Positions 3,432 through 64,000 of a DNA stretch of 64,000 bases are shown in pieces (position 1 is the stretch's first letter; each line of letters starts with the position of its first letter). A program made the translations under genes and the position numbers. Below the pieces are notes generated by a model. It saw only the letters and a program-made list of their open reading frames with translations, searched no databases and had not been told where the DNA came from. Source of the DNA: Brachyhypopomus gauderio (lineage: Eukaryota > Chordata > Actinopteri > Gymnotiformes > Hypopomidae); NCBI RefSeq assembly GCF_052324685.1, contig NC_135219.1, positions 22,599,316-22,663,315 of the forward strand, read 5' to 3'.

Positions 3432-3765
3432 CTTTAGGTCATGCTAGTCTGTAAATATTGGCTGCAATGTTAAGGTACAGTGCAATATGATTAATTGTAT
3501 AAAATGCTTTCACTTTTATATGTAAAATTGACACAACACAATACATTATGTATTTCTTAACTTTTACTGTATTTGTAAAAAAATTTAATGAATACAATAG
3601 TAATACAATTGACAGAATAAATTGAAATTGTTTTAATTGTTCATGAGTTCATGTCTTCATTATGATTTTCCATTGCTTGGTCATAGAGAGGTATTTTGGC
3701 ATGTAAGTGTTAAAGAAAAACATGTCACACCTCCTTTTCACCTCTTCTAATACACTGCTATCTCT

Positions 3766-17778: not shown

Positions 17779-17839
17779 GTGAGTGTTGCCTGCTCTTCAG
17801 CACTTCATGTGTGATCACTGCACTTGCATGTAAATTGCT

Positions 17840-20630
17840 TTGCTGTTAACACTGCATTACACAACAATGTTTTAAATCTAGTTCACCACATTGAATAATG
17901 TTTTGCTGTCAGCCTTCAAGCTGATTTGACCAAAGTTGAGCTGGTAGCCCTAAAAGTCCTAGTCAGTTTGTTTGGGTTCTGGTATTCTTCTCTAGATGAA
18001 CTCAAACCAGGACCTCCCAGGAAGGATCCCCACGAGCAGCAGACTTTACGGACCTTCTCCGATCCAGACCTCGCTCTCGCTCAGAGCTTCAGTCTGCTTA
18101 GCTCTGATGACTGGTAAGTCACACCTGCAAAATTCTGAAGCATTTGGCTAGGGCAGGTTAAACAGCAAGTCATTTATGGTGTTCTGCATATATGGTAAGT
18201 ATGCATGTATTTAGTGAAGTTTTTTCCTCTTTGTCCATTTTCTTGTAGCATTTTTTTCTTTCAGTATCCGATGGTTACAGTGTGTGTCTATGTTCAATAT
18301 CTTCATACAGGGAGAAGAAAATTGAAGGGTTGCTGTTCATCCGTAGATTGGCTCAGCATCACTCTGATGTGCTTGGCAGCAGGCGTCATGATGTCTGCAT
18401 TGTTCTTATTCAAGAGGTAAGCCACTAGATTTGCTGACTGTGTATCGGTCTGAATTCTAAAATTGGCAGACACCATCAGCATGTACATATTACAGGTGAT
18501 GTTGCTGACAAAGTCAAGTCAGCGTTAGCAAAGTACTTTGAAATTCATTTTTTATAAAAACATTTCTCATCTAATTGAAATTCAGATGGCATATCTAACT
18601 GTAATTAGTGATTAAGGTATTTCCGCCTACATAACACATTGCAGTGGTGGATTATACTTATTACGATGGCGGTGGCAGTGTTGGATGTGACTGAAACGAG
18701 CTGGAACGTCGTCTTTCCTGCAGGTGCAGAACCTGCGCTCTGCCGTGTCCCGCATGGCGGTGGTGTCCTTGAGGGAGTTGTACTCCAGCCTGCAGAAAGG
18801 GATGGACCAGGAAGTGGAGGCTACAGCTAAGGTCCTCCTTCACAAAGCAGCGGAGTCCAATGCCTTCATCAGGCAGGACGTGGACACAGCTCTGGACAGC
18901 ATGGTGCAGAACTGCACCCCCATTCGGAGCATGAACGCCCTTCTCGCTGGAGGACTCTGGTCAGTTAGCCTGCAGTGAGCTTTAAACTGTGGCTTTCAGA
19001 TAGCAACAACAGTCACAAGAAGCTAACAAAGCACTGATTTTGGCTGCTGTTTTTACTTTTCCATTGTTATTTCAAAATATTGCCCTGGCCTATATCAATA
19101 TTTTTAGTTATTTATCCTGTTAAATATTATTTTTATTGCATTCCACCTCCTCTCTTCTGATCCAAACTGCCCTTCACACCGCTTAAAGAATAGGCTAGTT
19201 AGCTAGCTTACAGAGGACATGCAAACATTTTCTGTTTAAAAAATACAGATGTACACTCACTGGTGCAAACTAAGCCATCGAATAGAATATGATAATTTGA
19301 TTGTGCACTTTGATCATACATATGGGTATTAAGTTTCTTTATAGAAGCTAAAAGTTGTAGGCCTACTGTATTCATTGATTGGATGGATTAATAGTTATTA
19401 CCTTCTTTTTTTGAATGCCCTAATTTTTTTCCTTCTGTTTTCCTCAAAAGTCATCTGAATGCTGCAGTAAGAAAGTGTACTGCTCTGCACTTGGCTACTT
19501 TGGTAGAGAAGATTGGCGCTGGCCGCTTATTGTCTGGGGCGAAAGACGTCATAGCGAGAATTATCCCTGCAGTCTCCAAGTTGGCACAGGACGCTTCCCA
19601 AGAAACCAGGTTAGTACTGGGATCAGAACGAGAATTCTACAAAGCTTATTCAGTTTCCCAGATACTAATCTTTTGCTGATTCTTTTAGTCTCCTAGTCTG
19701 ATACTCTGAAGTCAGCAAATGCTGCTAAATTGTAGAGTAATAGAAGCACTATCATGTTTTCTACACACAGACGGCCTTGTAAAATTGTGACCTGGTAAGA
19801 TAAATGGTCGGTGTGCTGTGAGTTACGGGTCTCTCACTCACGGTTCTCTCCTGTTTTGGGGTCTGTTCTTCGTCTCAGGCGCTTGGGCCGGCGTATGCTG
19901 CTGTTCCTGTCCTCCCACCATGACTTTGATAAGATGGTGGAAAAGTGCATCCCTGCCAAAGACCTGGCAACCATCAGGAACACTGTCCACACTCTGAAAT
20001 CCAAGGTAGCGATTCATGTTTGGATACATGATGAGGATTTTTTTTTTATGCCATTCAGCCACTATGCCCCATGTTTACTCACTAAACAAAGCTTATTCAC
20101 AAAACTTTTAGGTGAAACAGACTGCAATAAAAAAACCATCTAAACTGTGATGGTAGACATATATTGTAAACAAATAATAAAGTACAGGGCAGTGCGTGGC
20201 ACCACACAGTGTATTTACAGTAAGGCATGCACAGTGTAGTCCCAGACCCAGTAGTTAAAGGACAGAGCATGGTTCAAAATGAACCGGCTTGAAACCTTTG
20301 GGATAGAATCAAAGTATGAAGCAATATGTGGACTTCAATATCATCACTCCATGTTTTGTGGTGATTCGTACGTGTGTATTCCCAGGAGAGGACAAAGGTG
20401 TCTAGGAATGCGAAGATATAAGATGCGTCAGCCTCGTCTGGAGCAGCAAGAAGCTCCAGCCGCACAGGTGGAGCATCAGAACACGCAGCGAATGAAGCGC
20501 AGCCTTAGGCACACGGTGAGGGACGTGAGCCCAGACGACGCGGCACCTCTGAAAGGTAACTGCTGATTTCGGCGAACGCTCCCCTCTTGTATCTTGAGAA
20601 CCTTACCGTACCGCTTACCCGTGAACTCTA
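17840..20630 (+). repeat. Tandem duplication in togaram2-like gene, copy 2
   Basis: Second copy of 14,420-17,545. Differences from copy 1: no GATT-tailed repeat, no hairpin element, an 11-codon segment kept, and one extra base in the linker exon. Confidence 0.9.
17996..20555 (+). pseudogene. togaram2: togaram2-like TOG block, copy 2, with linker frameshift
   Basis: Exons 17996-18113, 18311-18416, 18724-18959, 19451-19609, 19879-20005 and 20386-20555 mirror copy 1. The TOG domain itself is complete, including the segment missing from copy 1 (ARIIPAVSKLAQDASQETR follows it). The linker exon 20386-20555 is 170 nt against 169 in copy 1: an extra base near 20,407 (aggaatgcg versus aggattcc) brings a TAA into frame soon after. 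Downstream of that point the residues RLEQQEAPAAQVEHQ continue in the other frame with the phase expected by the next exon, so a single-base change, real or from assembly, is the only break here. Confidence 0.65.
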
Positions 20631-39050: not shown

Positions 39051-41735
39051 TTACAAATTGTCTAAACACACCTGGCACTGCCACATAATCTCCTTTCTGC
39101 ATTTGCCACATGTGAACCTTTTACAAAAACCACAACGCTTAGTGGCACGGTTACTCTTGCAGCCACACTTAACCTGGCACAATGCCCTTTTCCCTGTGTC
39201 AGGTGTGGGTTGTTGCTGCTGAAACTCTACCTTGGACACCTCCTTGGCTTCCATATGAGACTGTGCAAGTTCTGTTGCAAGCTTCACCAAGAACTCGGAC
39301 CGTCTCTCTTTTACCCCAGTGCATGCTTGAAAAAGCACATGTGCATTCAGGCATGAAATGTCAATCATGTTATAAAACACAGCGACTGGCCAACGCCGTG
39401 TTCCTGAACGTACACTGTACTTTCGCACCATCTGGTCCATGACATCCACACCACATTTTAGGCTGTTGTAGTCTGTGATTGTGTTTGGCTTTTTTTTTCG
39501 GGTGTCTCCAATCTCCACCGTACTGTGCATGCTACTGAGGATGCAGAAAGTCTTTTTCCGTCTGGGCGCGTAAACGGTCAGCGTGGCACCAGAGGTTGAA
39601 AACACCTGTGTACTAAATTCCTCACGGCCCAAATTCTTTTTGACAGAGTCTGGAAGCTCACGACGAATCTTGTTTACTGTGCCAAGGAGGGTGGTCTTCC
39701 GGCCCAGCAACTGCCTTGCTAGTGACAGTGAGGTGAAAAAATTGTCTGTGGTAACAGTTCTTCCTTGGTCCATAAATGGTTCCATAAGCTTCATCACCAC
39801 ATTTTCCGATAGTCTTTCCCCGACGGGACGACTGGAGTCTTTGCCAAGATATGGGATGATGTTGCATACATACTTGGATTTCAGGTCACATGCCACCCAG
39901 AACTTTATCCCAAACTTGTCGGGTTTTGTTGCAATGTACTGAAGAAAAGAGCAACGGGTCTTAGTTGGAAAAAGTTGCTCATCTATGGTGATATGCCTTC
40001 CTGGGTTGTAACAAGTGATGCAATTGGCAGCGAAAGACCCCCAAACATTAGAGATTGCAGCAAACCGGTCAGTTGCAGCTCGTTCACTGCGTGTGTACTT
40101 GTCGTCAAAGTGAAGGTGCTGCATGATGTTCTGGAAGCGGTTTCGCGACATAATCTTGGTGATTAAGGGCACTCCCAGTGTTGTAGACCATGAGTCATGC
40201 ACCGCTGGAAGGCGCACAACACCTCGCAGGATGAGGATTGCAATGAACGCCTTTAGCTCAGCGAGGGACATGAACCAGTTTTCTTGCTGTGTCTGGCGTG
40301 CATGCTGGACAGTCCACCCCTGTATGATCCGAAGCATTTCAATAGAAACGAAACAGAGGAAACTCTGTAAGCGACTCAATACTTTCCGTAGGGCAAACGC
40401 AGTTGGCTCTCCATTCGTGGGATTGCATTTACTTGGGCTTGGATGCACTCCGTCATGTCTTCCGATCTGTTCTTCATGCCACACTGTGCCGTCTTTTGCA
40501 GTCTCTGTCAGCCGCCCGTGTGTCTCCACGCGACCCCTCTTTACTGGTGATGAAGTCTCCTCATCTACAGGACCATATGTTTGAGATTTGATTAGTGAAA
40601 GGTTGAAATAATGTGAAATTGACAAACATAATATTTGAAACGTAGCCGGCGATTGGCGGGTTCACACACAAATAGGCATTTTGGCCTTAATGGGGGGGGT
40701 GTGTGCATAAATAAATTAATGTGCACAAAAAGATTCAATTGAGGCACTAAAGGCCCAAAACGATCAAAATGTGTATTGGGAAATTGAGTCAGATCAAAGA
40801 ACTAAATCACATGCTGAGATCAGCAGTGTGTGTGTGTGTGTGTGTGTGTGGGGGGTCTTATGTATGTACTATTCAGTCAGTTCCAGTATTTGGCCAGTAA
40901 ATGGAGCCCATGTAATACCATACTGATATTACAGTAATGAAATAAGACATTTTAGTGAAATAAAAGGTTCATTTCTGGTCAAGCAGTGCACCTTTTGTTA
41001 TGAGATCTAATTGCAAAGTTATTTATCTCATTGACCTGACTCATACAAGACCCTTTATTTGTCTGTATTCTGCATAACAGGATTGCAGCATGAGTTTTTA
41101 TGATTTCTTAGGTTTTTGGACAATGCAGCGACAGGCCAATTTGAACCAAACTTGGCATACCTGAAGGACCTGTCTATAAAAGGCTTTGAAATTGGGAGTT
41201 GATCAACATGTTTATATGAATTATAGCAATATAGGTCATATATGGCCTCAATGATATCATGGGAAAATGGACCCACCTGAAAATAAAAAAAATCCAACAA
41301 TTTTTTAAAATAGTTTACCTACAGTGTCTACAGATTATGCCCATGCCACTCTTGCCATCATTGGATCAAATTCCTAGGACTAGTTCGAAAAGTGCCATTT
41401 TCAAACAATTGATGAATGTGACAAAACTGCGCCTTTTTTTAATAGGACTTGTAATTGCAAAGTTGTCAGGTGGACTGCAAGGAATCAAAAGAATCAAGTT
41501 TCATTTTCCTAAGCAAAGATTTGGAAAAGTTATGCATGATTCACAAATAGTGCCATCTAGTGGCCAAATTTTTCAAAACTGCACAGTGTGACAGTCCTGA
41601 GATGTGTGTGAACCCTAAATTGCAAAAATAGGTTTCCCCACACTACGTGTGTGAACCCCAATTATAATTCCAAAACATCTCAAGTATGCCACCTTGGAAG
41701 TAATGTAGGATTGTTTTCACACAGCAATACGTGGC

Positions 41736-45021: not shown

Positions 45022-46288
45022 TTGACCATGGCATGCCCATTTGTAGAAAATCCAGTAGATGAGGGAGCGTGTATAGTGCACAGAGCATTCATGCTACCAG
45101 CTCCAAGGTCATTCCAGGACAGGACAGATCCACTGGGCTTTCCGGATGACTACTTATTTGAGCACTACAGGTTCAGAAGACACAGTATTATATATCTTTG
45201 TAAATTACTGGGGCCATATATTGAGAAGAACACTAGACGTAGTAGAGCTCTTACCAAACCCCAAACGGTCTGTATCGCTTTGCACTTCTTTGCCAGCGGC
45301 GCATTTCTGTACAGCGTTGGGTATGCAGAACATCTTAGTAAGGCGACGGTCTGCTGCGAAATTCGATAGGTTTGTCTTGCGCTTAAGCGTTTCCTTAATA
45401 TATTCATTAAATTCCCTGGTCACAGAGGCATCCTTCCCATAAAAGAAGCTTTTTCAGAACAGCAGTAACTTGGAGTTAAATTTATATGACTTTAAAAGAG
45501 ACTCTTATCCAGAGCACTTACCGAAGTGCTCTGTATTCATCTTGATCAACTATTTCATGCTAAAATTCATTCAATTCAAAACAAATTGAATTCTCCAGGA
45601 TTTCCAAATGTCATTGGTGCTATAGACTGCACTCACATCAGGATAAAGGCTCCATCTGGACCCATGGAGGCAGACTATGTGAACTGAAAATCATTTCACA
45701 GCATCAATGTACAGGTACATGCAAGTTTTGCCCACCCAACAGAAATTGTAAAGCATGTCGCTCCATGGGTTTGAACAACTTTCACCCTTTGTCACTTTTG
45801 CCATTGTTCTAGATGGTTTGCACCAGCCAATTTCTGTTCTCCAACATTGAAGCAAAATGGCCCGGCTCGGTGCACAATATTTCGTGCCTCCTCACTGGCA
45901 CAGAGGTTTGCCGAAGGTAAGAATACTCCAACCACACAAAATAGTGCAGATTTGGCCTCAGTGTTTAACTCTACTCCTTATAATCGTAGGTGCTTTTCCT
46001 GGCTTACTGCTTGGGGATAGGGGTTACCCCTGCCAACCTTTTCTCCTTACCCCATATGCAGACTCTACAACAGATGCAGAGAGGAGGTTCAAGCGTGCAC
46101 ATTCAAAGACAAGGGCATGCATTGAGATGGCATTTGGACAGTTAAAGAGCAGATTTAACTGCTTGCGCCATCTCAGAGTGACCCCTGAGAGAGCCTGTGA
46201 CATTAAAGCAGCCTGTGCAGTTTTGCACAAGGTGGCAATACTGCAAAAAGGAGTAATGCCAAGAGTGCAGTTGGACTCTCCTGTCTGA
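45022..46288 (+). pseudogene. PIF/Harbinger (HARBI1-like) transposase, dead
   Basis: An N-terminal frame (GFPDDYLFEHYRFRRHSIIYL, LTKPQTVCIALHFFASGAF) ends in a TAG at 45,367-45,369. The same frame then continues (VCLALKRFLNIFIKFPGHRG). The DDE residues are visible: D in GAIDCTHIRIKAPSG (about 45,625), D in LLLGDRGYPC (about 46,014) and E in ACIEMAFGQLKSRFNCLRHL (about 46,120). A TGA at 45,684-45,686 replaces an expected arginine before KSFHSINVQ, and further frame changes occur at 45.75-45.9 kb. The catalytic residues survive but the frame has at least two stops, so the protein cannot be made from this copy. Confidence 0.82.
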
Positions 46289-46962: not shown

Positions 46963-47076
46963 TTAAACACAACACAAATCATGAGATCACACAGCACATT
47001 AACAGACAGATACATAGACACACACGACTTACAGCTGGCCTTTCTGAACAGGCAGAAATTTCTTTCTGGTTGCTAA

Positions 47077-48028
47077 TGTAATAACCTGATTTTTGTGTAA
47101 TCAGGATATTTTTATTTGTTAAAAAAATGTTTGATTTTGTTATGTACTGAGGCTTAAATGTATTTTAGTTTGTTATAAATGAATAAGTAATCTCATCGTT
47201 CTACAGAAAGTAAAATAACGCGAGAAGGGAGTTGAAAAAAGGGGGAAGGAAAAAAGCGGCGGACCGGTGGTGGTCGGGCGAACAGAGGCGCAGAGACTGG
47301 TTGAGGCTAGAGAACTTTGTAAAAGTGCTTGCGGCTGAGTTTGTCCGGCTTGGATCCTCGTTCCCTTGCTCCAGGTGGTCGCGGAGGAGACCGTAGCTGA
47401 CCTGTATGGTAGAGGAGTTAGCTTTGAGCTAGTTGTGAGGACCGAGTCGAGGAGCTAAGCTACGCTAGGTGCTAGCGGTGCTGCCGACTGTGAGGATTTC
47501 GCCTTAGGAAGAGCCGAGTGGGAGGAGGAAAGTGCGACACGGATCCAGCCAACTATCTGCATCGTGGGACGAGAGCCAGGGAAGTTGGGTTCGGTGTTGT
47601 GCATCTTCGGAGTTCGCGACGACGAGGAAAGTACTTCAGACCGGTAGTGTTACGGTTTCTATTACGGGATATGAGCTCCAACGCGCGCCACCAAACTTAA
47701 ATGCAAGCTTGCAAACAACGTTAAGAGTGCACTCTTAAAAGCTCTAAAACTATACAAAAAGGCCGGAGATAATTTGTGTTTGGGGTTTGTGTTTGTTATG
47801 TTTAGCATTTCATTAATACACAATTCTAAAAGTACATTATTGTGTGGATATCATTTCTTTGTTGTACACTATATTTGGTTACTGTGGGAAACCTCTCTAG
47901 AATCAGTTAAGTTCCTAGACACAGTTTATACACATTGGAATGTCTTTTTCACCACAGTGAGATTACACATTGAAGGGAACCTATATTAGGTGATATCTTA
48001 TAGCGAGCTGAGTGGTGAAAGGGTTACA
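47077..48028 (+). repeat. Gypsy 5' LTR
   Basis: Begins tgtaataacctgatttttg and ends gaaagggttaca. Near identical to 57,558-58,506. Confidence 0.95.
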
Positions 48029-48030
48029 TT

Positions 48031-48052
48031 TGTGGGGGCTCGTTCCGGGATT
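48031..48052 (+). promoter_or_regulatory. Primer binding site, tRNA-Pro-like
   Basis: The sequence gggggctcgttccgggat lies just after the 5' LTR. It matches the tRNA-Pro primer site known from gammaretroviruses except for one extra T in the middle. Confidence 0.6.
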
Positions 48053-48169
48053 ATTATTTTTGTGTAAATATTGTTTGTGTACAGACTACCCAGTTTTGGA
48101 TTGAATGCAAATGTTTGGTTATTAAGTTGCCCTGCATTTTTTTTTGCTGTGTTTTTTCCGAGTAACAAA

Positions 48170-49438
48170 ATGGATCCAGCAGGGATTGAAAGGTGGTGTG
48201 AAAAACATCAGTTGTCTTTTGCTAATGCCATTGTTTTGAGTGGTGTTTCTGATGTGACAGACGATGTTCTACTTACAGCCCTTAGCACAGTCAAGGCTAT
48301 AGGAAAGACCAGAATAGTAGAGAAATGTTTTGACACGACCACTAAAACTGACTTTGTACTTGTTCAGACCTCTGCTACAGTGACTGGGCAGAGTTTACCA
48401 AATGCTATCGGCATTCCTGGCGAAGTTGGTCCCTGGCCTCTTCATGTACTTCCTGCGGCCACAGAACTTGAACAATTTCAAGCCAAGCTGATGTCGTTTC
48501 TTCAAAGTGAAGGCAAAAGCATCGCTGATGTTAAAGGACTATTAAACCCTCCTTCGCTAGATGTAAATGCTGCTCTTGTCAATGCCATTAGCTCTCTTGT
48601 GGACAAATGTAATGCTGCGCCAGCGGACACTCAAAGCTACAGGAAGCTGCGGATGTTTTCTGGGATCAGACCGACTCCTAGTGGCGAAGAGGAGTATGAC
48701 GATTGGGCAGAGCAAACTACACACATGCTGGAGGAATGGCAATGTGGAGACAGCGTAAAAAAACAAAGGATAGTGGAGAGTCTGAAAGGCCCAGCCCCCG
48801 ACATAATAAGATTCTCGAGAGTACAAAATCCCAACGCCACATCAAATGACTATATGCAGGCACTGGAAACAGCATTTGGAACCACTGAAAGTTCGGCTGA
48901 TCTCCTAGTCAAGTTCAGACACACATTTCAAATTGAAGGAGAGAAACTGTCAACATACCTGCTACGACTAGACAAACTGATGCATTGTGTATTCCGGAAG
49001 GGAGGCTTGCAGTTAGCTGACATGAATCGACTCCGTACTGAACAAGTTGTACGAGGCGCTTTACCGCATGATATGACTGCAATGCGCATACGAATGACAC
49101 ACAAGCTAAGAGAACCTCTAACCTTCAGTGAACTTTTGAAAGAAGTCAGAGAAGAAGAAGATATGCTGCAGGGCAGAAATGACACTAAAAGTTCCGTAAT
49201 GTCAAAAGCAGTCACTTCTGTTACCACGTCCTCACCTGAAGTCAAAACTGACCCTGAGGTGGAACAACTCAAAAGGGAACTCAAGGAAATGAAAGCTGAA
49301 ATGAGCAATCTAAAATTTGTGAGTGTTGCCACAGCTACAGTACAACCTGAAATAAAGAGTGCAAATAAAAGCAAGTACAAAGGGAACTCATTGGCACAAA
49401 GGCCAAATACTAGTTCAGAGATTCCTCCTACACTGTAA
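48170..49438 (+). pseudogene. Gypsy gag, PNMA-like, interrupted before the zinc knuckle
   Basis: The likely start is the ATG at 48,170 (MDPAGIERWCEKHQ). The upstream in-frame Met at 48,071 lies in leader sequence. The N-terminal region (VVLSGV-type start, LSTVKAIGKTRIVEKCF) resembles the PNMA/Ma antigen RNA-binding-like domain. The middle (YDDWAEQTTHMLEEW, LVKFRHTFQIEGEKLSTYLLRLDKLMH) is the capsid core typical of PNMA/gypsy Gag, and a basic, coiled-coil-prone tail follows. The frame ends in the TAA created by the terminal sequence of the nested DNA element. The CCHC zinc knuckle lies beyond that element at about 52,936-52,980. Confidence 0.85.
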
Positions 49439-49672
49439 AAAGTGAAGCATGGAGCTGTTCATTCAAGCTAATACATATGATTGAACACATAGTACAATTA
49501 TTGACTTTATTGTAAAACTCAACCTTTTTGAATTTTGATGTGTCAATTTTGATTCAGACTAAATTAATTACAATTCTGAAGGAAATAAACCAAATGTTTT
49601 GGTTCCACTGAAATCATACTCGAAGAAAAGAGATAAGGATGTAATATTTTTAATTTGAATCAAACATGAATT

Positions 49673-49682
49673 GCGCATGCGC
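49673..49682. promoter_or_regulatory. NRF1-type palindrome, likely promoter of the nested element's gene
   Basis: GCGCATGCGC is a perfect NRF1 consensus palindrome. It is followed about 70 bases later by an ATG (49,754) and a donor-like gtgagt at about 49,799, the layout of a TATA-less promoter with a short first exon. Confidence 0.45.
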
Positions 49683-51076
49683 ACTGTGGAGCGCGGGAGA
49701 AGTTGTAGAGAAGTGCTTCAGAGCTCTGTCCATTTCGGCTTGGGGAAGAAGAAATGAAGAACGTCGTACTTGTATTGCATCCAAGAATTGACGTACAGTG
49801 AGTACTAAGCAAAGCAGATGTAAACTTATTTTAACAAGCCTATAAGTTTATCAATGCAACAGGGTAAGTTAATTTTAGCTGGCTAGCAAGCTGAAGGTCT
49901 TTGCTAAATATCAGTAGCCCACTAAACGCTGGCGTTTTTCGCCGTGTTAAATGTGGTGTAATTTCTGAACGTCTACGTATTTTATGTGTATATTGTGGGA
50001 TGTAGCTGGAATTAATCAATGTAATAAGCATGCTTCCCTTCTGGCACGTGCAGAGGGGGGACGGAGGGTGCTGGAGCACCTGCCCCTTTGGCCCTTTCTG
50101 CCCAAAGTGCCCTTTTTTGTGCCCTTTTGTCAATTTTGTCAATCCACATAGACGTGCCCTCACAAACGTCCGGTATTTAGTTTCGGTTTGCTCGAGTGAG
50201 ACGTCGTCGTCGTCGTCCCCCCCGAAATATGACGATAGAGAGGGAGAAAGTGCTTGAACGTGTGCGCGCGTGAGAGAAAGAGAGAGCCTGAAATATGACG
50301 AGAGGGAGAAAGTGCCTGAACGCTCGCGAGAGAGAGTGAGAGACGGAGAAAGTGCCTGAACGCTCGCCCGAGATAGCAACGCATGCTTATGGTAAGGTAT
50401 TTTATATAATAACGCAGCCTCTCTGGCCAGTTAGGATATGCTAGGATAAGCTCCGCACCGATGCAGCGCCGGTGGAGTCAGATATGAAGTGAGCGCGCTC
50501 TGCGGAGATAAAGTGATTCAACACGCTTCCACAATCATTAAAATAGGTGAAATATTTAATAAGAGAGTTGTGTGGAACTTGTACGGCTTTCTAATATCAG
50601 CTCCGCTACATATTAAGACAGATATGAGTATGCTTGCTAGTGTTTAGTTTTGCGTACCATTTCATACGCATGGTTATTTCTTGATGTAAATTATTTCTTT
50701 AGTTCAGTCAATTTGGCATGCAAGATCAGCGTGGGAGGCAGCGTGCTCCAAAAAGCAAAGATACCCACTTCAACCCAAATTACTATTAAATAACAAGGAC
50801 AGTGTTGCATTTGTCTGCAGTCATTTCAACATTAGCTGTGGTGGCTCATATGATTGTAAGACAGCAGTAGTGGTAATAATAACAATAATAATAATGATGA
50901 TGATTTAATGTATTTTTATATCTCAGTTCATACATCTCAATGCAGCTCAATGTATTAGACTCTACATTGTATATTAGGTATATAGAATACCAGGCTGTCA
51001 TTAAAACTGAACAAAACTTATTTAAGATTTGTGATAATTCTCTTTATATTTACTGGTCTGCCTTCCTTTTTTTCAG

Positions 51077-51944
51077 TTTGGATGTGGAAATGCAAAGAGT
51101 GCAGCGTGCATTTTTCAGGAAGATCTGAGCTACTGAAACATTTGAGAATTGACCATCGGTTTCACGGTAGGCGGCGTCCCTATCCATGCATCCACGCACA
51201 ATGCCCCTGTTCGTCCAAGACATGGAATGGTCTTCAGAAACATCTCTCTAGAAATCATCCTTCTCTGGAATCCCAACAAAAACATTTTTCTTTCAAGTGT
51301 TACATTTGTGAAGACAATCAGCTTTCTACTGAGCAAGTTTTTTTGGGAATTGAGTAGCCAGACTAGTCTACACATTGCTTATTAACCATTAGTGCTGATG
51401 TCGAAGTCAGAAGGGAGTGTATCCTCAAAGCTCTCATCATCTACCTGGGAGAACGTGTTGAGGACCTATTAAAGGAATACATGGTATGTCCAGATATATT
51501 CTGTCACAATGATGAGATTCAACTTTATTAATCATGGGAGAACACACTTGGCCATTGTATGTAGTGATTAATAATGTGTGCCCTACTGCAGTTCAGTTGC
51601 CCATTTTGTGTATTTTGCCTCAGGTCTCCCAGAAAGATCAAGCCGAGCAGGAGCTGGAGAGTACTATCATGGCAGTCTTCGTCTTCAGGGAGAATTCAAG
51701 CCTTCTTCAACAGCCCCAAGACATTGGGATTATCATTGATGGCGTGGAGGTCCTCAATGAGTTGCCTTCTGTTGAAGCTGGAGTGGTAATGCTCTTTGGA
51801 CTTTGCTATGCTCTTAACATGGAATACCCATAGGGTCTCAGGTTCACCTTTGAGGCCCTTCAGAAGATCCTGATGGAGCTTGGTTCCAATAAGATGTCTT
51901 CCAAGATTCGTAAACTCAGTGGTGAACTCAAAACTGCACAGTAG
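51077..51944 (+). pseudogene. C2H2 / SAMD3-like gene, deleted and stopped
   Basis: An exon from 51,077 (acceptor tttttttcag) begins MWKCKECSVHFSGRSELLKH: one C2H2 finger and further Cys/His pairs (CPCSSKTWNGLQKHLSRNH, CYICED). It stops at 51,357. A second exon at about 51,393-51,483 (RRECILKALIIYLGERVEDL) and a third from 51,624 (STIMAVFVFRENSS, DIGIIIDGVEVLNELPSVEA, LFGLCYALNMEYP) follow. A TAG at 51,831-51,833 breaks the third, but the frame goes on (LRFTFEALQKILMELGSNK) to a final stop at 51,942-51,944. Fish genomes carry many uncharacterised proteins that start with such a MWxCKxC finger and end with a similar domain, often named SAMD3-like. The long central part is missing here. Role unknown. 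Confidence 0.65.
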
Positions 51945-51985
51945 TGTATATTTGTCTGAGCATGTAGTTAACGCTGGCTTCTATT

Positions 51986-52350
51986 TAAGAGGTAGACAAC
52001 CTCAGCGGGACTTGGTTGTACAGGATTTTAGGGTCATTTTCATGGAGTGCTGTTGCCATTTAATGCTGTAACATTTTGTTGTGATTTTAGTATTTTCAAT
52101 ATGCTATTTAGAGAGACAACACTCCATTAAAAGTTTAAAGTTCAGATGTGTATGTACAGTACACAACAATGACAACACAGTCTTGCAGTGAAACGTCGCT
52201 GGGCTGACTATTTTATTTTAAGAGGTAGAATACCTCAGTGGCAGTTGGTTGCATGGGCCCATTATCATGGAGTGCTGTTGCCATTTAATTCTGTTATGTT
52301 TTGGTGGTGTTTGAGTATTTTCAATATGATCTCTAGAGACAACACCCCTT
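51986..52350. repeat. Direct duplication of about 130 bp, period about 232 bp
   Basis: Words taagaggtaga, catggagtgctgttgccatt and agagacaacac occur at 51,986-52,125 and again at 52,219-52,350, in the 3' part of the nested element. Confidence 0.75.
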
Positions 52351-52935
52351 CAAGAAATAAATACCTCATTTATTTAAATTGAGATTGGATAAGCCTGTGC
52401 CCCATTGATGCGTTTTCCTCATGCTTGGTAAGCCATCCATTTTCTTTTGTCTAAGCTCTGATATGCAAAAATACACTGCCATGTTGTTTGTCTGAATATG
52501 CTGCCATGTTTTTTTTTTTTTCCTTTTTTACTCTTGAGGAATAAATGGCTTAAAAAACCCTGTTGGTCAAGTGTCTTTTACATGGGGAAATTATTTTTGA
52601 AGTTGAATTAAATGTAAAAAATATAATTTCACTTTGCCAATGAATTAATTTGTGTGAATGCTAACATATTAATTTGGTGCAATGTAAATACATTAGTTCG
52701 GTTCAATTTAAATGTATTAGTTTGGTTCCGAAACTGAAATGTAAAGAATTTAACTTGGATCAAGGTGAATAATTAATATTGGGTCGAGTGAAGTAATATG
52801 GTTTATGTGAAAATAAAATAATCAGGTTGTAACAATTGACTTTATTTAGATTGAGTGAAGTCAAATAGTTTAGATGCAACAAATGGACATCAATTTTTTT
52901 AATTTGAGCAGGGCTACACTTTTTACAGTGTAGCG

Positions 52936-53066
52936 TATTTTGTTACAAATGTGGAGAAGATGGCCACTACATGCGAGATTGTAATAGCCCAGAAAATCTC
53001 CTAAGAGTCAACAAACGTCTGATTAAACTGACAAAGAAATTGGGAAACTACCACGGGGCCCAGTAG
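52936..53066 (+). CDS. Gypsy gag C-terminus: CCHC zinc knuckle, ends in TAG
   Basis: Frame VFCYKCGEDGHYMRDC is a CX2CX4HX4C knuckle for RNA packaging. It continues through a basic stretch to the stop TAG at 53,064-53,066. It belongs to the gag frame interrupted at 49,430. Confidence 0.85.
53042..53048 (+). promoter_or_regulatory. Candidate -1 ribosomal frameshift heptamer GGGAAAC
   Basis: In the gag frame the bases read G GGA AAC, a perfect X XXY YYZ slippery heptamer, 16 bases before the gag stop. The pol frame is -1 relative to gag and is open from 53,027, so a slip here joins gag to pol. GGGAAAC is used in known betaretroviral gag-pro shifts. Confidence 0.65.
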
Positions 53067-56000
53067 TGGAGCGGCCTGGAGTCCCGCTGGTAAAGACACG
53101 TTCCAAGAGCATCAAAACAGAGAAAGAAGTGGAAGACACTATTCCCCAAGGCTTAGTTGGCCCTAGTTCTGCTATACCAGTACAGATTGAAGGCATTTAC
53201 ACTAAAGCTATTCTTGACACTGGTTCTCAAGTCACCCTGCTCTACAGATCCTTCTACAACAGATACCTGACTCACCTGCCATTAACACCTATCAGTGTTC
53301 TGCAGATATGGGGCCTCAGTCCTGCCGATTACCCATATGATGGCTATTTGTCACTAAAGTTGGAGTTCAGGGAAGCTGATGTAGGTGTGACGGAGATCAT
53401 TGATGCACTTGTGTTAGTCTGTCCCGATCCAGTTGTGAAAGACAATGTAGCTATGCTCGTTGGCACAAACACTCCCACTGTGAGAAGACTACTGAAAAGT
53501 TACAAGGACCATGATGGGGAAAATGTCATCGCAGCAAGACATATCCATCCTGCTTTCAAAAAGGCTTTAGAGGAAATTTCAAAATCCCCACTTGAAACTG
53601 ACACCTATAGAAGAGGATCCGTGTGGTTTGCCCAAACGAAACCAGTGACATTGCGCCCAGGTGGTGTAGCAAGGGTCAAAGGTGTGCCAAAATTTCAAGG
53701 GATTCCAAGCACTCAAGCCATTTTGGTGGACACACCTGATGATCTTCCAGGGGAATCAAGGTTTCCAGATCAGCTTTTAGTGAGACCGGAACTGCGGTCA
53801 GCCACTGTTGTTAGTTCCCGAAAAATCACTGTCCTGGTCAGAAACAACTCGACAAAAGAGATCTCGCTTACCAGAGGTATGCCAATTGCCCACCTCTTCC
53901 CTGTTGATGTGCTGTCAACATCGACCACCAGTAAAGAGATCGATCTCAAGTCTTCAAAGAAACTGACATCATCGTCTTTTGATTTTGGAACCTCACCTGT
54001 TCCCGAGGAATGGAAAGAAAGACTAGTGACTAAAATGATGGAACACAGTGAAGTTTTCTCTACTCATGAGTTTGATGTAGGCTGTAGTAAGAGCACAGCG
54101 CACACAATCAAAATAAACGATGACAAGCCATTTCGAGAAAGGTCCCGTCGCTTACCACCTGCTGATTTAGAAGCACTCCGAGAGCATCTATTGCAGTTGA
54201 AAGGTGCTGGCATCATTACAGAATCACGTAGTCCTTATGCCTCACCTATTGTGGTGGTGAAAAAGAAAACTGGCAAGATTAGGATGTGTGTGGACTATAG
54301 GACACTAAACAGGCGCACTATTCCTGATCAGTACACAGTACCCAAAATTGAAGATGCACTTACCTGTCTTAATGGAAGCAAATGGTTCAGTGTCTTAGAT
54401 CTGCGAAGTGGTTATTACCAAGTGCCCATGAGGGAAGTAGACAAAGAAAAGACAGCATTTATCTGCCCACTTGGCTTCTATCAGTTCGAAAGGATGCCAC
54501 AAGGAGTGTCAGGCGCTCCTGCGACATTTCAGCGCATCATGGAGAAAACAGTTGGAGATATGAATTTGCTGGAAGTCTTGGTCTATTTGGATGACCTCAT
54601 AGTGTTTGGCGCTACACTTGAGCAGCACGAACAAAGACTATTAAAAGTGCTCAAGCGCCTAAAAGAGGAAGGCCTTAAGCTTTCCTTAGACAAATGCCAG
54701 TTTTGCCAGCCATCAGTGTCTTATGTCGGACACATTGTTTCCCAGAAAGGGGTGTCTACAGATCCAAACAAAACGGAGGCAGTCACTTCCTGGCCCCAAC
54801 CAACAACTGTAACCGAACTGCGATCATTCCTCGGATTCTGCGGGTATTACAGACGCTTTGTCAGAGATTATTCCAAGGTTGCTTTCCCGCTAAACCAACT
54901 TTTGTCTGGATACCCCCCTCATGGAAAAAGGTTCAAGAAAAATCAGGAACAACCCTATTTCAATCCATCTGAGCCCTTTGGTTCAAGGTGGGATGACCAT
55001 TGCCAAACAGCTTTTGAAGCGTTAAAGGACAGACTCTCAAACGCTCCAGTACTAGCCTTTGCTAACCCGCAGTTACCCTATACGTTACATGTTGACGCTA
55101 GCAGAGAGGGACTAGGGGGTGTTCTATATCAGGACCAAGGTGAAGGACTAAAACCAGTTGCATTCGTAAGTCGCAGTCTAACCCCATCGGAACGTCACTA
55201 TCCAGCTCACAAGTTGGAATACCTTGCCTTGAAGTGGGCCATAGTCGACAAGCTGCATGACTATCTGTACGGTGCAAAGTTTGAAGTCCGAACAGATAAC
55301 AACCCTTTGACGTACGTCTTGACGTCAGCCAAACTAGACGCAACAGGTCACCGTTGGCTTGCAGCCTTGTCAACATATGACTTCAGTCTCAAGTACAGAG
55401 CCGGTACTCAAAATATTGATGCCGATGCTTTATCAAGGAGACCGCATCCGGACAAACCTGCTGAACAGCAATGGACTGACATTTCCGCAGATGGTGTGAG
55501 AGCTATGTGTCAAGTGTCTACCATGATCAAGAAAGGTACTTGTTCTAACAAAGTAGTTGATCATTTAGGCCTCTCCATGCAGGCCATACCCAAGGCCTAC
55601 TGCAACCTGTCTACACTTAGTGTCAAGGGAATGCCTGTCTTGAGCCCCCCAGAGATCTCGAAGGCTCAACAAGAGGATCCCACGATCAGTGAAGTATGGA
55701 AAGCTCTCAAGCAAGGAGACACAAGTCAAGTTAAGTCAAAAAGTTCTGCTGGCTCATTACTACTGCGAGAGTGGGACAGACTAAAATTTCAACAAGATGT
55801 CATGTACCGAATCACTGTTCCACCTGGCCAAGCGCGCCGCTCACAATTAGTGTTGCCAGAGAAATTTAGGAAAATGGTGCTGCAGTCACTCCATGATGAT
55901 TCTGGTCATCTCGGCATTGACAAGACCTATGGACTCGTTAAAGAAAGGTTCTATTGGCCTAAAATGAAATCCGACGTCGAAGGACACTGCAAACTCTGTG

Positions 56001-57490
56001 CCCGGTGCATAAAGAGAAAGACACTTCCAAAGAAAGTTGCATCATTGTTCCACATGCAAAGTCATGGCCCTTTGGACCTTGTATGTATGGATTTCTTATC
56101 CATTGAACCAGACTCCAGCAACACAGAAAATGTCCTGGTCATTACTGATCATTACACCCGCTATGCGCAGGCCTTCCCAACAAGAGATCAGAAAGCTTCT
56201 ACCGTAGCTAAAGTCCTGCTCGAGAAGTATTTCATTCATTACGGATTGCCTAAACGCATGCACAGTGATCAGGGAAGAGATTTTGAGAGTCGGCTCATAC
56301 ATGAGTTGCTGAGTTCTCTTGGTGTAGATAAATCAAGAACGACCCCATATCATCCACAAGGGGATCCCCAACCTGAAAGATTTAATAGAACTTTGTTAGA
56401 TATGCTTGGGACCCTAGAGCCTGACAAGAAAAGAAAATGGAGTCAACACATTTCACATTTGGTCCATGCTTACAATTGTACACCAAATGAAGCCACTGGA
56501 TTCTCGCCTTACTATCTTATGTTTGGGCGTGAAGCAAGAATGCCTGTGGATTTGTGTTTTGGGACATCCAGTGATGATACAAACAAAGACACTTATCTCA
56601 GATACATCACAGACATAAGGAAAGAGTTAAAAACTGCTTACAAACTTGCTGAGGCTACTGCAGCAAAACAAAACAAAGGAAACAAACAGAGATACGATAA
56701 GAAAATCAAATTCTCACAATTGTTACCTGGAGACAGAGTCCTAATACGCAATCTTGGATTACAAGGAAAACATAAGCTAGCAGATCGTTGGAACTCAACG
56801 CCTTATGTTGTAGAAAGCCAAATGTCAAACCTACCTGTGTTTCGGCTGAAACCAGAAGATGGAAGTGGACCCATCAAAACCCTGCATCGTAATCACATTT
56901 TGCCTCTGGGGCATAAAGTGTGTTTGGATTCAGTGAAAAGCTCAAGTCTTGCTCCGGAAAGAAAAAGAGCGAGGAGAAAGGGAAACAATACCAGAAAAGA
57001 CAACAACAAAATCATCCTCAACCTCGACATGTCAGTACGAGACAACAATGAAGAAGAATACACAGATTCAGAAGATGAAGAATTTGGAGTCTGGCATGAC
57101 ATACCATTTGTCGGAAAAAATACAAGAGGAGACAAGGAAGCATCAGAACCATTCAGTTTGGATTTGGATGTTCAGCCTGAAGATCCAGCCGCTCAAGAGG
57201 GACAGGATGCTGACAAAGACGAGACTCAACCTAACATAGCTGAGCACACTGACTTGCAAGGGGCCAGTGACCCACAGCCTGACGTTCCAAACACTATGAT
57301 TTTAGACTCGAACCCTGACCCAGACTCTCAAGATAACTTGCGCATTGACGAGACTAGACAATCCAACCGACATAGGAAAGCCCCCTCGAGACTGACCTAT
57401 GATGCACTGGGTACTCCTAGTGTTATTTACCCTACCGTGAAATACGTTTCTTGTTTGTATAAGTGGATTAGTTCCCCTTTTTCAACCTAG
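53066..57490 (+). CDS. pol: Gypsy pol polyprotein, intact
   Basis: The open frame runs to 57,490 (1,474 codons from a GTG at 53,066; no ATG is expected because translation probably enters by frameshift from gag). Domains: aspartic protease (ILDTGSQ, about residue 51), reverse transcriptase (YLDDLIVFG, about 507), RNase H (LHVDASREGLGG, about 676), and integrase with HHCC finger (H-LGIDKTYGLVKERFYWP ... CARC, about 947-985) and catalytic D, D, E near 1009, 1067 and 1103 (MDFLSIEP, HSDQGRDF, PERFNRTL). The C-terminal 250 residues include a GPY/F-like basic region and an acidic, low-complexity tail. The glycine-rich turn before the catalytic Glu is unusual (GDPQPERF where GNGQVERF is usual). No stop or frameshift is seen. 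Confidence 0.95.
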   Translation: MERPGVPLVKTRSKSIKTEKEVEDTIPQGLVGPSSAIPVQIEGIYTKAILDTGSQVTLLYRSFYNRYLTHLPLTPISVLQIWGLSPADYPYDGYLSLKLEFREADVGVTEIIDALVLVCPDPVVKDNVAMLVGTNTPTVRRLLKSYKDHDGENVIAARHIHPAFKKALEEISKSPLETDTYRRGSVWFAQTKPVTLRPGGVARVKGVPKFQGIPSTQAILVDTPDDLPGESRFPDQLLVRPELRSATVVSSRKITVLVRNNSTKEISLTRGMPIAHLFPVDVLSTSTTSKEIDLKSSKKLTSSSFDFGTSPVPEEWKERLVTKMMEHSEVFSTHEFDVGCSKSTAHTIKINDDKPFRERSRRLPPADLEALREHLLQLKGAGIITESRSPYASPIVVVKKKTGKIRMCVDYRTLNRRTIPDQYTVPKIEDALTCLNGSKWFSVLDLRSGYYQVPMREVDKEKTAFICPLGFYQFERMPQGVSGAPATFQRIMEKTVGDMNLLEVLVYLDDLIVFGATLEQHEQRLLKVLKRLKEEGLKLSLDKCQFCQPSVSYVGHIVSQKGVSTDPNKTEAVTSWPQPTTVTELRSFLGFCGYYRRFVRDYSKVAFPLNQLLSGYPPHGKRFKKNQEQPYFNPSEPFGSRWDDHCQTAFEALKDRLSNAPVLAFANPQLPYTLHVDASREGLGGVLYQDQGEGLKPVAFVSRSLTPSERHYPAHKLEYLALKWAIVDKLHDYLYGAKFEVRTDNNPLTYVLTSAKLDATGHRWLAALSTYDFSLKYRAGTQNIDADALSRRPHPDKPAEQQWTDISADGVRAMCQVSTMIKKGTCSNKVVDHLGLSMQAIPKAYCNLSTLSVKGMPVLSPPEISKAQQEDPTISEVWKALKQGDTSQVKSKSSAGSLLLREWDRLKFQQDVMYRITVPPGQARRSQLVLPEKFRKMVLQSLHDDSGHLGIDKTYGLVKERFYWPKMKSDVEGHCKLCARCIKRKTLPKKVASLFHMQSHGPLDLVCMDFLSIEPDSSNTENVLVITDHYTRYAQAFPTRDQKASTVAKVLLEKYFIHYGLPKRMHSDQGRDFESRLIHELLSSLGVDKSRTTPYHPQGDPQPERFNRTLLDMLGTLEPDKKRKWSQHISHLVHAYNCTPNEATGFSPYYLMFGREARMPVDLCFGTSSDDTNKDTYLRYITDIRKELKTAYKLAEATAAKQNKGNKQRYDKKIKFSQLLPGDRVLIRNLGLQGKHKLADRWNSTPYVVESQMSNLPVFRLKPEDGSGPIKTLHRNHILPLGHKVCLDSVKSSSLAPERKRARRKGNNTRKDNNKIILNLDMSVRDNNEEEYTDSEDEEFGVWHDIPFVGKNTRGDKEASEPFSLDLDVQPEDPAAQEGQDADKDETQPNIAEHTDLQGASDPQPDVPNTMILDSNPDPDSQDNLRIDETRQSNRHRKAPSRLTYDALGTPSVIYPTVKYVSCLYKWISSPFST

Positions 57491-57539
57491 TTTGGTTAAG
57501 TTTATTGGATTATATGTTAAGTCATGAGGGCATGCCTTT

Positions 57540-57557
57540 TTTTTGGTGGAGGGAGAA
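57540..57557 (+). promoter_or_regulatory. Polypurine tract
   Basis: ggtggagggagaa immediately precedes the 3' LTR at 57,558, as required for plus-strand priming. Confidence 0.7.
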
Positions 57558-58506
57558 TGTAATAACCTGATTTTTGTGTAATCAGGATATTTTTATTTGT
57601 TAAAAAAATGTTTGATTTTGTTATGTACTGAGGCTTAAATGTATTTTAGTTTGTTATAAATGAATAAGTAATCTCATCGTTCTACAGAAAGTAAAATAAC
57701 GCGAGAAGGGAGTTGAAAAAAGGGGGAAGGAAAAAAGCGGCGGACCGGTGGTGGTCGGGCGAACAGAGGCGCAGAGACTGGTTGAGGCTAGAGAACTTTG
57801 TAAAAGTGCTTGCGGCTGAGTTTGTCCGGCTTGGATCCTCGTTCCCTTGCTCCAGGTGGTCGCGGAGGAGACCGTAGCTGACCTGTATGGTAGAGGAGTT
57901 AGCTTTGAGCTAGTTGTGAGGACCGAGTCGAGGAGCTAAGCTACGCTAGGTGCTAGCGGTGCTGCCGACTGTGAGGATTTCGCCTTAGGAAGAGCCGAGT
58001 GGGAGGAGGAAAGTGCGACACGGATCCAGCCAACTATCTGCATCGTGGGACGAGAGCCAGGGAAGTTGGGTTCGGTGTTGTGCATCTTCGGAGTTCGCGA
58101 CGACGAGGAAAGTACTTCAGACCGGTAGTGTTACGGTTTCTATTACGGGATATGAGCTCCAACGCGCGCCACCAAACTTAAATGCAAGCTTGCAAACAAC
58201 GTTAAGAGTGCACTCTTAAAAGCTCTAAAACTATACAAAAAGGCCGGAGATAATTTGTGTTTGGGGTTTCGTGTTATGTTTAGCATTTCATTAATACACA
58301 ATTCTAAAAGTACATTATTGTGTGGATATCATTTCTTTGTTGTACACTATATTTGGTTACTGTGGGAAACCTCTCTAGAATCAGTTAAGTTCCTAGACAC
58401 AGTTTATACACATTGGAATGTCTTTTTCACCACAGTGAGATTACACATTGAAGGGAACCTATATTAGGTGATATCTTATAGCGAGCTGAGTGGTGAAAGG
58501 GTTACA
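57558..58506 (+). repeat. Gypsy 3' LTR
   Basis: 949 bp. Same sequence as the 5' LTR except for a small indel at about 58,267. Confidence 0.95.
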
Positions 58507-59722: not shown

Positions 59723-61439
59723 ATGGCCTAGGTGCACGCACCACTTCCTCGTTGGTGTCAGGATGGTACCGTATTTCCGGTTGGTATGCGGAAGTGTCGA
59801 TGTCATGGCCGAGTCTAAATTCACAAGGTGCCTGTTGGAGTTCCCGAAATTTACCATCAACGATGTGCGTCGTATTGTCAGAGCATCAAGTACAACGACA
59901 CAGAGTCAACTTGAAAAGGGTTTCAAGTTCTACGTTTCATCCTACCTCTGCAATTTTGAAGGTAAGTGGCCGACGCTAGTTAGCTAGCTAGCCTGAGGTG
60001 GCAGTCTAATGAAGTGATGTTGTTTTTAGTAACGAACCAACCTGTCCTAGTACTAGAAATGCCTTTTTAAAACATGTTTGTATTTCTGATGGAAGTATCA
60101 GGCAAAAGTAAGGCTAACGAGATAACAGTGAGGGCTCACTGCTACAAATCTATGAAGAAAACAGATACGCCACACCAGCTGAGAGTAGGACTGGTTAAAA
60201 TGACACGAGTTCTGTTCAGTGTCACGTTCAAAGTTCTGTTGAACAAGTTCAAAAGTGAGTTCAACACAAGTTCAATCTTTTATCCTTGCTCTTACTTCAC
60301 GTAAGCTGTGATAACCATAGGCATTGGTTTTCAAAGCTTACAATGGTAGCCAAATGCAGAGTAGCTGAGTGGGAATCATTAGCAGTCTATTTTGCCTATA
60401 GTAAACAAATGGGAGTTTATTTTACAGTTCGAGCTATTGTTATCTACCTCTATGACTCAAAAGCAGAATATAGTCCACCTCAGCTATTCTTCAAACTGCA
60501 TTTTCTAAAATCTGTCAATCTGTCTTTCAAATCTTTCATCTTAACTTCTTTATTAACATATGGCTGCAACACTTACACCTATTAACATATTCTGATAACA
60601 CTCTTCAAGAAGCAGTTGAAGTAAAACCTGCACTGTTCTGTTGTTGGTGGTGGAAACAACAAAATAATATAAATATAAGTAGGCCTGTTTCACTCCTATG
60701 TGTAAGCATTTCATCTGGAGTGAAAATGAAGTTTAAATCTAAAATATATTTAGTTTATAGTTGCTCACTGAACTAGTAGATTGAAACATGCACAACACTG
60801 TAGAATAGAAAGACAGTATAGCCAAGTGTTTTAAGAGTGATGCAAAACAGCACAAACATTACATGAGACAATAGACAAGTGACATTCACCACTAACAACA
60901 TGATGGGACAGATATTGCGCCTATTGACATTGCTGTCTTCTTTTCAAGATACTAAATTTTGCCTCTTGTGTATTTCAGATGACATTACATGATTCAATGC
61001 CAGTTGTGCTCATTAACAGGGGAATCTGCAACCACTTGGTTGCATTGCTTTTCCAGACTGCTCATTATTCTGAATCTGGCATGTCTGTCGTCCCTCCTGT
61101 CCTTTCATGCACACAGACAGAACAGAAGTGGCATAAACCACCAACAATGGTTTGTCTTATTTCATTATTTAATGTTAGTTAATGTATCACAGTCACTTTA
61201 CTAACACCATCTTTTAAATTAATAGGGGGTGAAGCCTGGACCCGTGGATGCCATGGTTGTCCTAAAGCCAAAACCAGGTGCTACTACAGCCAGTGGAGTT
61301 AGGTATGTAGTACCAAATTTAATAGGCAGATTACAGTGTGTGGTTAAAAATATATATGCTTTTGATCATCTGATAAGACGATCTGATCTGTTCTCTTCAA
61401 AATTTAATTTAGCTTTGTTGTACTTCAGATTAGTGTTGT

Positions 61440-62945
61440 CAAAAAAATTGATATATCGATACGTATCGATACTGAACATTCTGAAACGGTACAATACTCG
61501 TTTCCCTTAAGTATCGATTCTTTTTACATAAAATGCGCTTTCGTTTGACCCACCCAAGCTGCCGTAATGCACAGGACAGTTTGTAATGCTAATATGGCAG
61601 CTTAAGCAAACGCAGTGCTGTTGGATTCGAAGCAGATACAGATGGAAAACTGAAGGACTTGAACAAGCCCGTTTGCAAGCGGTGCTTTTGGAACATTTCA
61701 ACGAAGGGCGCTAAAGCCTGGTTGAGTGACCATAGCGCTCGACTCCGCGCGCACCTCGTGCGAACCTCCGCGAGCGGTGGAGGCTTTATACTTTCCGCTT
61801 TGCAGTGTTGTCCGAAACTATATGTGGTAGTATAAAAGAAACACCCCTCAAAACAGGGGAATGAACACTTACCTGACGAATTTTAATGCTGCTTTGTGTT
61901 TCAGGTTTGAAAAGTGCTGCAATTTAGGCTAAAGTACTTGAAAATGTTGAAATTGTAACTACTTCATTTCACAACAAATATCTGTCTGACTGAACAGTTT
62001 TCATGTATTACGTTAACAAATACGAGCCTCTTGTAATTCCAGGATGAAACATGAGAGAACGTGAAGACGTTAAGATTGGGCGTTTTGAAAATAAACAACC
62101 ATTAAATAATGTGATTAAAAGCGCAATATTTCGAATCATTTCGAGTATATGTATAAATATTTAACTCAATTAAGTTTAACGTGCTGGGAAATATTGGTAC
62201 AAGCGCTTGAATTGAACCCTGCAAACATGACTTTGTTCATTGCGCTGAGGCGCGGCGCGTGCAAAGTTACAAAATTCGAGAGGTGCACGACCTCGCGTGC
62301 GCCGCGCTTCAGCGCGATGAACAAAGTCATGTTTGCAGGGTTCATACACCTTGTGGAATTCAAACACTTGTATGTCACTTTCAAGGTCCATTTCAATATT
62401 TCCCAGCACGAGCAAAGACACTTTGTCAGATGTTCAAAAGACGTCCACTGAAAAGCCAGAATGAAAGTTTTAGCGACGTCTTTTTTAAACGTCTATTACT
62501 GCCGTTCAGTTGCAGTTTTTGCACGTCCTGACATCCAATAAAGGTCCTAGTCAAACGTTCAGATAGAAAACTCGTCATAGACGTTCATGTTAAGTTAAAA
62601 GGTTAAGGTCCTAGTCACACTGTCAGATTTTGAACGTCCACCAGACATGCAAAAAAGGGTCTGGACTGACCGACGTGATACAGACTTGATTTTAACGTCT
62701 TTCTGACGTCGCATGTTTGTTGGGATAAGTTAAATATTTATACATGTACTTGAAATTATTCGCTTTATCATCACATTATTTAATGGTTGTTTATTTTCAA
62801 AACACCCAATCGTAACGTCTTCACGTTCTCTCATGTTTCATCCTGGAATTGCAAGATGCTCGTATTTGTTAACACAAAATAACTGTTCAGTCAGACAGAT
62901 ATTTGTTGTGAAATGAAGTTACAATTTCAAGCATTTTCCAACACC
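61440..62945. mobile_element. Foldback hAT-like repeat cluster replacing part of the YqaJ exon
   Basis: A short MITE-like start (about 61,430-61,520, with tatcgatacgtatcgata) leads into long inverted arms, about 61,930-62,270 against 62,286-62,408 plus 62,728-62,945. These carry the same blocks found at 25.8, 30.8, 36.7 and 37.6 kb. The arms meet in a short centre around aagttacaaaattcgagagg. Confidence 0.7.
62408..62728. mobile_element. ACGT-rich MITE inserted in the foldback arm
   Basis: Rich in acgtc/gacgt words (gcgacgtctt, ttgaacgtcc, tctgacgtcgcatg), and it splits the right arm of the foldback. Ends are approximate. Confidence 0.5.
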
Positions 62946-63821
62946 TTTTGTGGCCTTGTCACAGTCACACCTTATTGAAGAGGCACCAAGATCCAAAAGT
63001 GCTACACCTGAGTGGCATTCACTTAGGAGAGAAAGAGTAACTGCCTCACATTTCAGAGAGGTGAGCCACGTTAGAGGTCCAGGTGCTGCAGAAAGGATAA
63101 TCCGAGGGACACGACAAACAGCACATGTGAAGAGGGGACTTGAAATGGAAACAGAGGCCTTAAAGGACTGTGCAGTTCTGAAAAACTTGAACTTAACCAA
63201 GTGTGGGCTAGTGATTCATCCAGATGCCTCTTGGCTGGGTGCATCACCTGATGGACTTGTATATGACCCACTTGAGCGTCCATCATTTGGGCTTGTTGAA
63301 ATCAAGTGCCCAAATGCACAAAGCTATGTAGACTGCAAATTCCTCAAAGTGGCACAAGGCCTACACAAAATGAAGGAGAGCCATTGTTATTATTGGCAAA
63401 TCCAGTTCCAGTTATTGATTACTGGTATGCAGTGGTGTGATTTAGTTATCTGTGCCCATGATGATATCTTTATGCAGCGAGTTTACAGAGATAGCAGTGT
63501 ATTAGAAGAGGTGAAAAGGAGGTGTGACATGTTTTTCTTTAACACTTACATGCCAAAATACCTCTCTATGCCCAAGCAATAGAAAATCATAATGAAGACA
63601 TGAACTCATGAACAATTAAAACAATTTCAATTTATTCTGTCAATTGTATTACTATTGTATTTGTTTCATTTTTTTACAAATACAGTAAAAGTTAAGAAAT
63701 ACATAATGTTGTATTGTGTTGTCAATTTTACATATAAAAGGGAAAGCATTTTATACAATTAATCATATTGCACTGTACCTTAACATTGCAGCCAATATTT
63801 ACAGACTAGCATGACCTAAAG

Positions 63822-64000
63822 CAGGGGTCGGCAACCTTTTTGACTCGGAGCCACAAAAGCAAAAATAATTGGAAATTTATTTCAGTGACGATGACATGTC
63901 ACTCAAGCGAACCGAAACTAAATACCGGACATTTGTGAAATTCCACCCGAACATTTTTTTAAGTCTCAAAAATAATATACGGTAATTAAATACTCATTAA
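63822..64000. mobile_element. hAT MITE, inverted-arm copy, cut by window end
   Basis: Begins caggggtcggcaacc after gacctaaag. Reverse complement of the element at 3,177-3,431. Confidence 0.8.

Follow-up and report, generated by a model that had tools for sequence, protein, structure and literature searches.

A SAMD3-like gene in the electric fish Brachyhypopomus gauderio as part of a probable two-gene CMC/EnSpm-like DNA transposon

A 64,000-nucleotide stretch of the Brachyhypopomus gauderio genome (assembly GCF_052324685.1, contig NC_135219.1, positions 22,599,316 to 22,663,315; the window) contains a 3,500-bp element in which a C2H2 zinc-finger exon lies next to exons of a SAMD3-like gene, a gene type listed as an ordinary one in many fishes. 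Does this gene belong to the element, or was it picked up from the host? Our analysis indicates that the element is very probably a deletion derivative of a two-gene, cut-and-paste CMC/EnSpm-like (RAG1-fold) DNA transposon, the genes of which are referred to here as A, the predicted transposase, and B, the SAMD3-like gene. Direct support comes from the ends and TA sites, the gene order, the signature and predicted fold of A, the codivergence of A and B, near-identical copies elsewhere in the genome, and a deletion junction shared between copies. The element and its surroundings are delimited as follows.

49431–52930 (+): internally deleted, non-autonomous CMC-type transposon, 3,500 bp (terminal inverted repeats (TIRs), TA sites and ends of relatives)
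49431–49444 (+): left TIR CACTGTAAAAAGTG, an exact match to the right TIR
52917–52930 (-): right TIR, an exact match to the left TIR
49429–49430 (no strand): left TA target-site copy; a single TA restores the gag frame
52931–52932 (no strand): right TA target-site copy; a single TA restores the gag frame
47075–58506 (+): host of the insertion, a Ty3/Gypsy-type long terminal repeat (LTR) retrotransposon with PNMA-type gag (gag and pol domains)

The 14-bp TIRs are perfect and are the sole exact matches to this sequence in the 64-kb window. With two mismatches allowed, 3 matches were obtained against 1.08 expected, so that the evidence for the TIRs lies in their exactness, their pairing and the adjacent TA. 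The end pattern TACACTGNAAAA, searched on both strands, occurred once in 59.6 kb of the window outside the element. Fusion of the short flanks on a single TA yielded a PNMA-type gag frame open into the zinc knuckle. Since one TA restores this frame, the insertion is genuine and duplicated 2 bp, and the TA-flanked element with 14-bp TIRs put forward in the original prediction is confirmed. The LTRs of the host retrotransposon (47075–48028 and 57556–58506) share 99.5% identity over 954 bp. Most simply, the element entered this recent Ty3/Gypsy-type retrotransposon after the latter's own insertion.

The following gene remnants were recognized within the element.

49445–51076 (+): 5' leader, with what is probably a first exon without coding sequence (donor near 49800), then an intron up to the acceptor at 51076 (by reading)
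51082–51357 (+): start of gene A, a 91-aa C2H2 open reading frame (ORF; 51082–51354) with stop, matching A up to aa 86 (homology)
51343–51393 (+): region of the shared deletion junction, linking gene A aa 86 with the sequence that precedes exon 3 of gene B (copy comparison)
51394–51483 (+): gene B (SAMD3-like) exon 3 (homology)
51624–51944 (+): gene B exon 4; a TAG in frame lies at 51831–51833 and the end-of-gene stop at 51942–51944 (homology)

A protein search with the window exons led to two separate kinds of fish protein. Kind A (P0011, P0015) opens with the same C2H2 exon and runs on for about 880 aa; the match in the window (51082–51342) is 86% identical to P0011. Kind B (P0002, P0003) is a SAMD3-like protein whose last exons are those in the window (51379–51489, 76% identity; 51624–51941, 90% identity to P0002). 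The C2H2 and SAMD3-like exons adjoin because a deletion joined two neighbouring genes. The spliced C2H2/SAMD3-like gene envisaged earlier was thus correctly read as to both exon types, but these are remnants of two genes. Also, the reported lack of a transposase is true of the window copy, with no transposase core inside 49431–52930, but not of its full-length relatives, in which gene A is the predicted transposase.

These relatives were revealed by a search for A in 796.5 Mb of the genome (840 contigs), which gave 55 matching stretches. Thirty loci were retrieved together with 1.5 kb of flank at either end; in 28 of them B, whole or in part, lies a short way 3' of A in the same orientation, and 16 have an A ORF of at least 870 aa. 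Nine loci, selected for a CACTG end no more than 1.5 kb upstream of A, were followed downstream for another 4 kb, and each displayed a matching end after B and TA on both sides; since L012 and L014 share flanks, they represent eight sites. Six further loci were extended, selected because no end was visible, and two of these (L010, L013) added ends with TA at two additional sites. TA-bounded CACTG..CAGTG ends were therefore found in 11 of 15 extended copies, plus the window element. The eleven resolved copies are 7,516–8,889 bp long, with exact TIRs of 11–13 bp in the first nine, and copies at different sites are up to 99.95% identical (L015/L016; 99.2% for L008/L009). The location of B between ends of the same kind at unrelated TA sites makes it a coding part of the transposon, as had been suspected, within the A loci of this one genome. 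A single chance capture of the gene exons, also considered in advance, did not hold up.

Gene A is one open frame of approximately 880–910 aa. C2H2 fingers at the N-terminus are followed by a DDE core of RAG1/Transib type, and the C-terminus carries a BAH-like domain. The D, D and E residues and the zinc site, C(2)C plus H(3)H, were invariant in 42 of 42 aligned sequences and in 16 of 16 intact copies from this genome, the catalytic residues being assigned by pattern and not by superposition. A carries the CMC/CMCT signature, namely C(2)C and H(3-4)H placed after the second D and before the E, and the element has the corresponding 5'-CA..TG-3' ends with a target duplication in the range of 2–5 bp. 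The structure predicted for A displays a RAG1/Transib-like core fold. Judged by its motifs and this model, gene A is the putative CMC-type transposase of the element. The PDB sequence search with the A profile returned 87 matches, the best 60 of which were zinc-finger proteins.

Gene B encodes about 500–550 aa in four coding exons, with a PB1-like domain at the N-terminus and a conserved C-terminal region. A PB1 domain was detected in P0111 (Pfam, E 2.4e-5). The Pfam scan of P0002, P0021, P0024, and P0128 gave no match at the limits used, and the B profile likewise found nothing among PDB sequences. The N-terminus of the B model shows a weak likeness to PB1/ubiquitin folds (best E 9e-3); the model is poor (mean predicted local distance difference test score 53), and its reading is therefore confined to these N-terminal matches. 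The B profile retrieved 226 proteins at E ≤0.001. Among the best 120, the legible species are ray-finned fishes, apart from a one-source ferret (Mustela) label on P0004 and P0005. Two B. gauderio proteins occur among these 120, and both are encoded inside TIR/TA-bounded elements: the L009 element encodes, in four exons, all 517 residues of P0128, which NCBI names 'sterile alpha motif domain-containing protein 3-like', and the L013 element encodes all 533 residues of P0127. In B. gauderio, then, neither of the two is a gene outside mobile elements, and at least some SAMD3-like fish genes in the databases belong to mobile DNA. In the deepest branch examined, L059, A is about 30% identical and the next gene is still B-like (E 2e-6 to 2e-4); its first open frame resembles the SAM-like family PF22931 (E 7e-4), below the cut-off of that family. 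Misleading public names were encountered among B or A–B proteins P0121, P0027, and P0004 (coatomer subunit delta, HARBI1, and the ferret label), and in P0027, from Merluccius, a DDE_Tnp_4-type domain is annotated alongside A and B.

Several observations suggest that A and B form one unit. A joined A and B query retrieved 74 proteins, including four predicted fusions in which A precedes B, two in Merluccius polli and one each in Coilia grayii and Mugilogobius chulae. The distances within A and within B are correlated across 11 lineages (Spearman 0.825, reached in 0 of 5000 permutations; seven near-identical copies from this genome, L007 and the fusion P0088 were left out). B lies directly after A and its divergence tracks that of A, which argues against the occasional cargo that had been offered as an option. 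The ratios of nonsynonymous to synonymous substitution rates (dN/dS) were 0.22 for A and 0.10 for B exon 1 in L008/L012 (the latter from only four changes), 0.29 for B in L006/L031 (from two changes), and 0.15 for A and 0.11 for B in L022/L024, where synonymous sites are near saturation. They point to constraint on both genes, with recent B values based on few changes.

The complete element would read TA-CACTG..gene A..gene B..CAGTG-TA, over about 7.5–8.9 kb. The C2H2 fingers of A may recognize the element ends, its DDE core would cut beside CACTG and insert at TA, and the BAH-like domain possibly contacts chromatin or nucleosomes. B could be an accessory subunit that self-assembles via PB1/SAM and assists A. 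In the window copy, a single deletion has removed most of A together with the opening part of B, and deleted copies such as this one would then have been moved in trans by transposase supplied from elsewhere.

The 5' 600 bp of the window element is present in four copies in the genome (the window, L044, L045, and L046). All four share the deletion junction, which implies that one deletion product has multiplied. L045 is complete, with TA at its ends; L044 is interrupted by insertions and reaches the end of the fetched stretch; for L046, no 3' part was found within the 9.2 kb retrieved. The best intact A N-terminus in this genome is 53% identical to the window exon, compared to 86% for P0011. 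Either a different subfamily mobilized the window copy, or the assembly or the set of scored candidates lacks its partner.

The multiplication of the deleted form, together with the 91-aa C2H2 ORF open in all four copies, would also suit an element that encodes a truncated finger protein lacking the catalytic core, or a fusion, and represses its relatives as other transposon repressors do. We regard this as unlikely, since the TAG in B exon 4 occurs in three of the four deleted copies (L046 is without it) and no splice donor has been demonstrated downstream of the fingers. Another explanation holds that the SAMD3-like genes are a host family captured as cargo once or a few times. B proteins are indeed annotated as host genes in many fishes, and B by itself has no transposase signature. 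The 28 of 30 A loci followed by B, the same order in predicted fusions of three other species, the correlated divergence, and the placement of both listed B. gauderio proteins in elements make such a capture quite improbable. A Tc1/mariner-like miniature inverted-repeat transposable element with accidental host exons, for which the TA duplication would be suitable, has practically no probability left and is ruled out by the full-length copies, where gene A with its CMC signature and RAG1-type predicted fold lies between CACTG ends of the same kind.

Some results weigh against a two-gene CMC/EnSpm-like transposon as the source of the window element. No Pfam match to Transposase_21, the domain typical of EnSpm transposases, was obtained at E 1 for P0011 and P0015, and likewise for the L059 copy, which was also without ends in the fetched DNA. 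Two of the 30 A loci, L020 and L034, match A only in part and are without B. The TIR pair of L022 is imperfect, though TA-flanked; the 13-bp TIR pair of L006 is flanked by CA, not TA, and CA also flanks the deleted copy L044 on its 5' side. After extension, the ends of L007 and L024 were not found. Among the own-genome candidates scored there was no autonomous copy close to the window subfamily. The few changes behind the recent dN/dS values of B, the function of which is inferred only, belong here as well.

In B. gauderio at least, SAMD3-like is a transposon gene, and gene counts, expression lists and 'gene family expansions' may accordingly include mobile DNA. The near-identical elements with intact A frames at different sites open a RAG-fold vertebrate transposon to direct tests of its activity and of whether a second subunit is needed. 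A wider reading, which we offer tentatively and consider possible rather than probable, is that a recently active two-gene transposon of the RAG1 fold resides in ray-finned fishes, its transposase (C2H2 fingers, RAG1-type core and BAH) working with an obligatory PB1/SAM partner that self-assembles, in parallel to RAG1/RAG2, and that a large share of the fish SAMD3-like family, and perhaps SAMD3 in other vertebrates, derives from this partner.

Among prokaryote genome contigs, one degenerate A fragment (L001) was found, in a contig of an Epulopiscium metagenome-assembled genome, and P0061, a protein retrieved with the joined A and B query, is filed under Epulonipiscium fishelsonii. Both are probably host fish DNA contaminating bacterial genomes. 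Viral contigs contained neither A nor B, phage records contained no A, and NCBIfam gave no match for the three proteins tried. By title and listing, no paper on SAMD3 and transposons was present among the literature matches listed for this subject, and 'BAH domain' did not appear among those listed for transposase, BAH domain, RAG1, and fish.

Other mobile DNA is present in the window. Positions 3254–6466 and 59724–64000 are inverted copies with 95–97% identity in two pieces and with YqaJ-type exonuclease ORFs, of a kind known from ISL2EU transposons. An open 536-aa piggyBac-type transposase ORF (DDE_Tnp_1_7, E 1.4e-76) lies at 39054–40661 (-), and HARBI1-like DDE_Tnp_4 fragments at 45598–46285 (+). 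A CLASP_N-like exon at 15339–15698, just below the Pfam cut-off, appears again near 18691 by ORF comparison, in a tandem duplication within 15339–20566.

Transib and ProtoRAG transposons produce 5-bp target duplications. The fish element differs from these and from RAG1 in its 2-bp TA duplication and its CACTG ends. With the EnSpm/CACTA elements, including the animal TRC elements, it shares CACT-type ends, 2-bp duplications and a CMC-type transposase, as far as the excerpted text of PMC1636069 describes them; there, 2-bp duplications are given for seven of 14 SmTRC1 copies. It differs from EnSpm/CACTA in that A has no Transposase_21 match and in the second gene, B. EnSpm-N6_DR, a 346-bp zebrafish element, is likewise a short non-autonomous fish element filed under EnSpm in the excerpt of PMC3485254. 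In the sections of PMC12730594 consulted, CA..TG ends are ascribed to most of the CMCT clade, and ESTA are described as EnSpm-like elements of fungi with TA target duplications. The fish element has in common with ESTA the CMCT-type transposase motifs and the TA duplication, a likeness by features and not by tree. The ESTA families described in those sections are fungal and have TET/JBP genes, whereas the fish element combines a SAMD3-like second gene with C2H2 fingers and a BAH-like tail.
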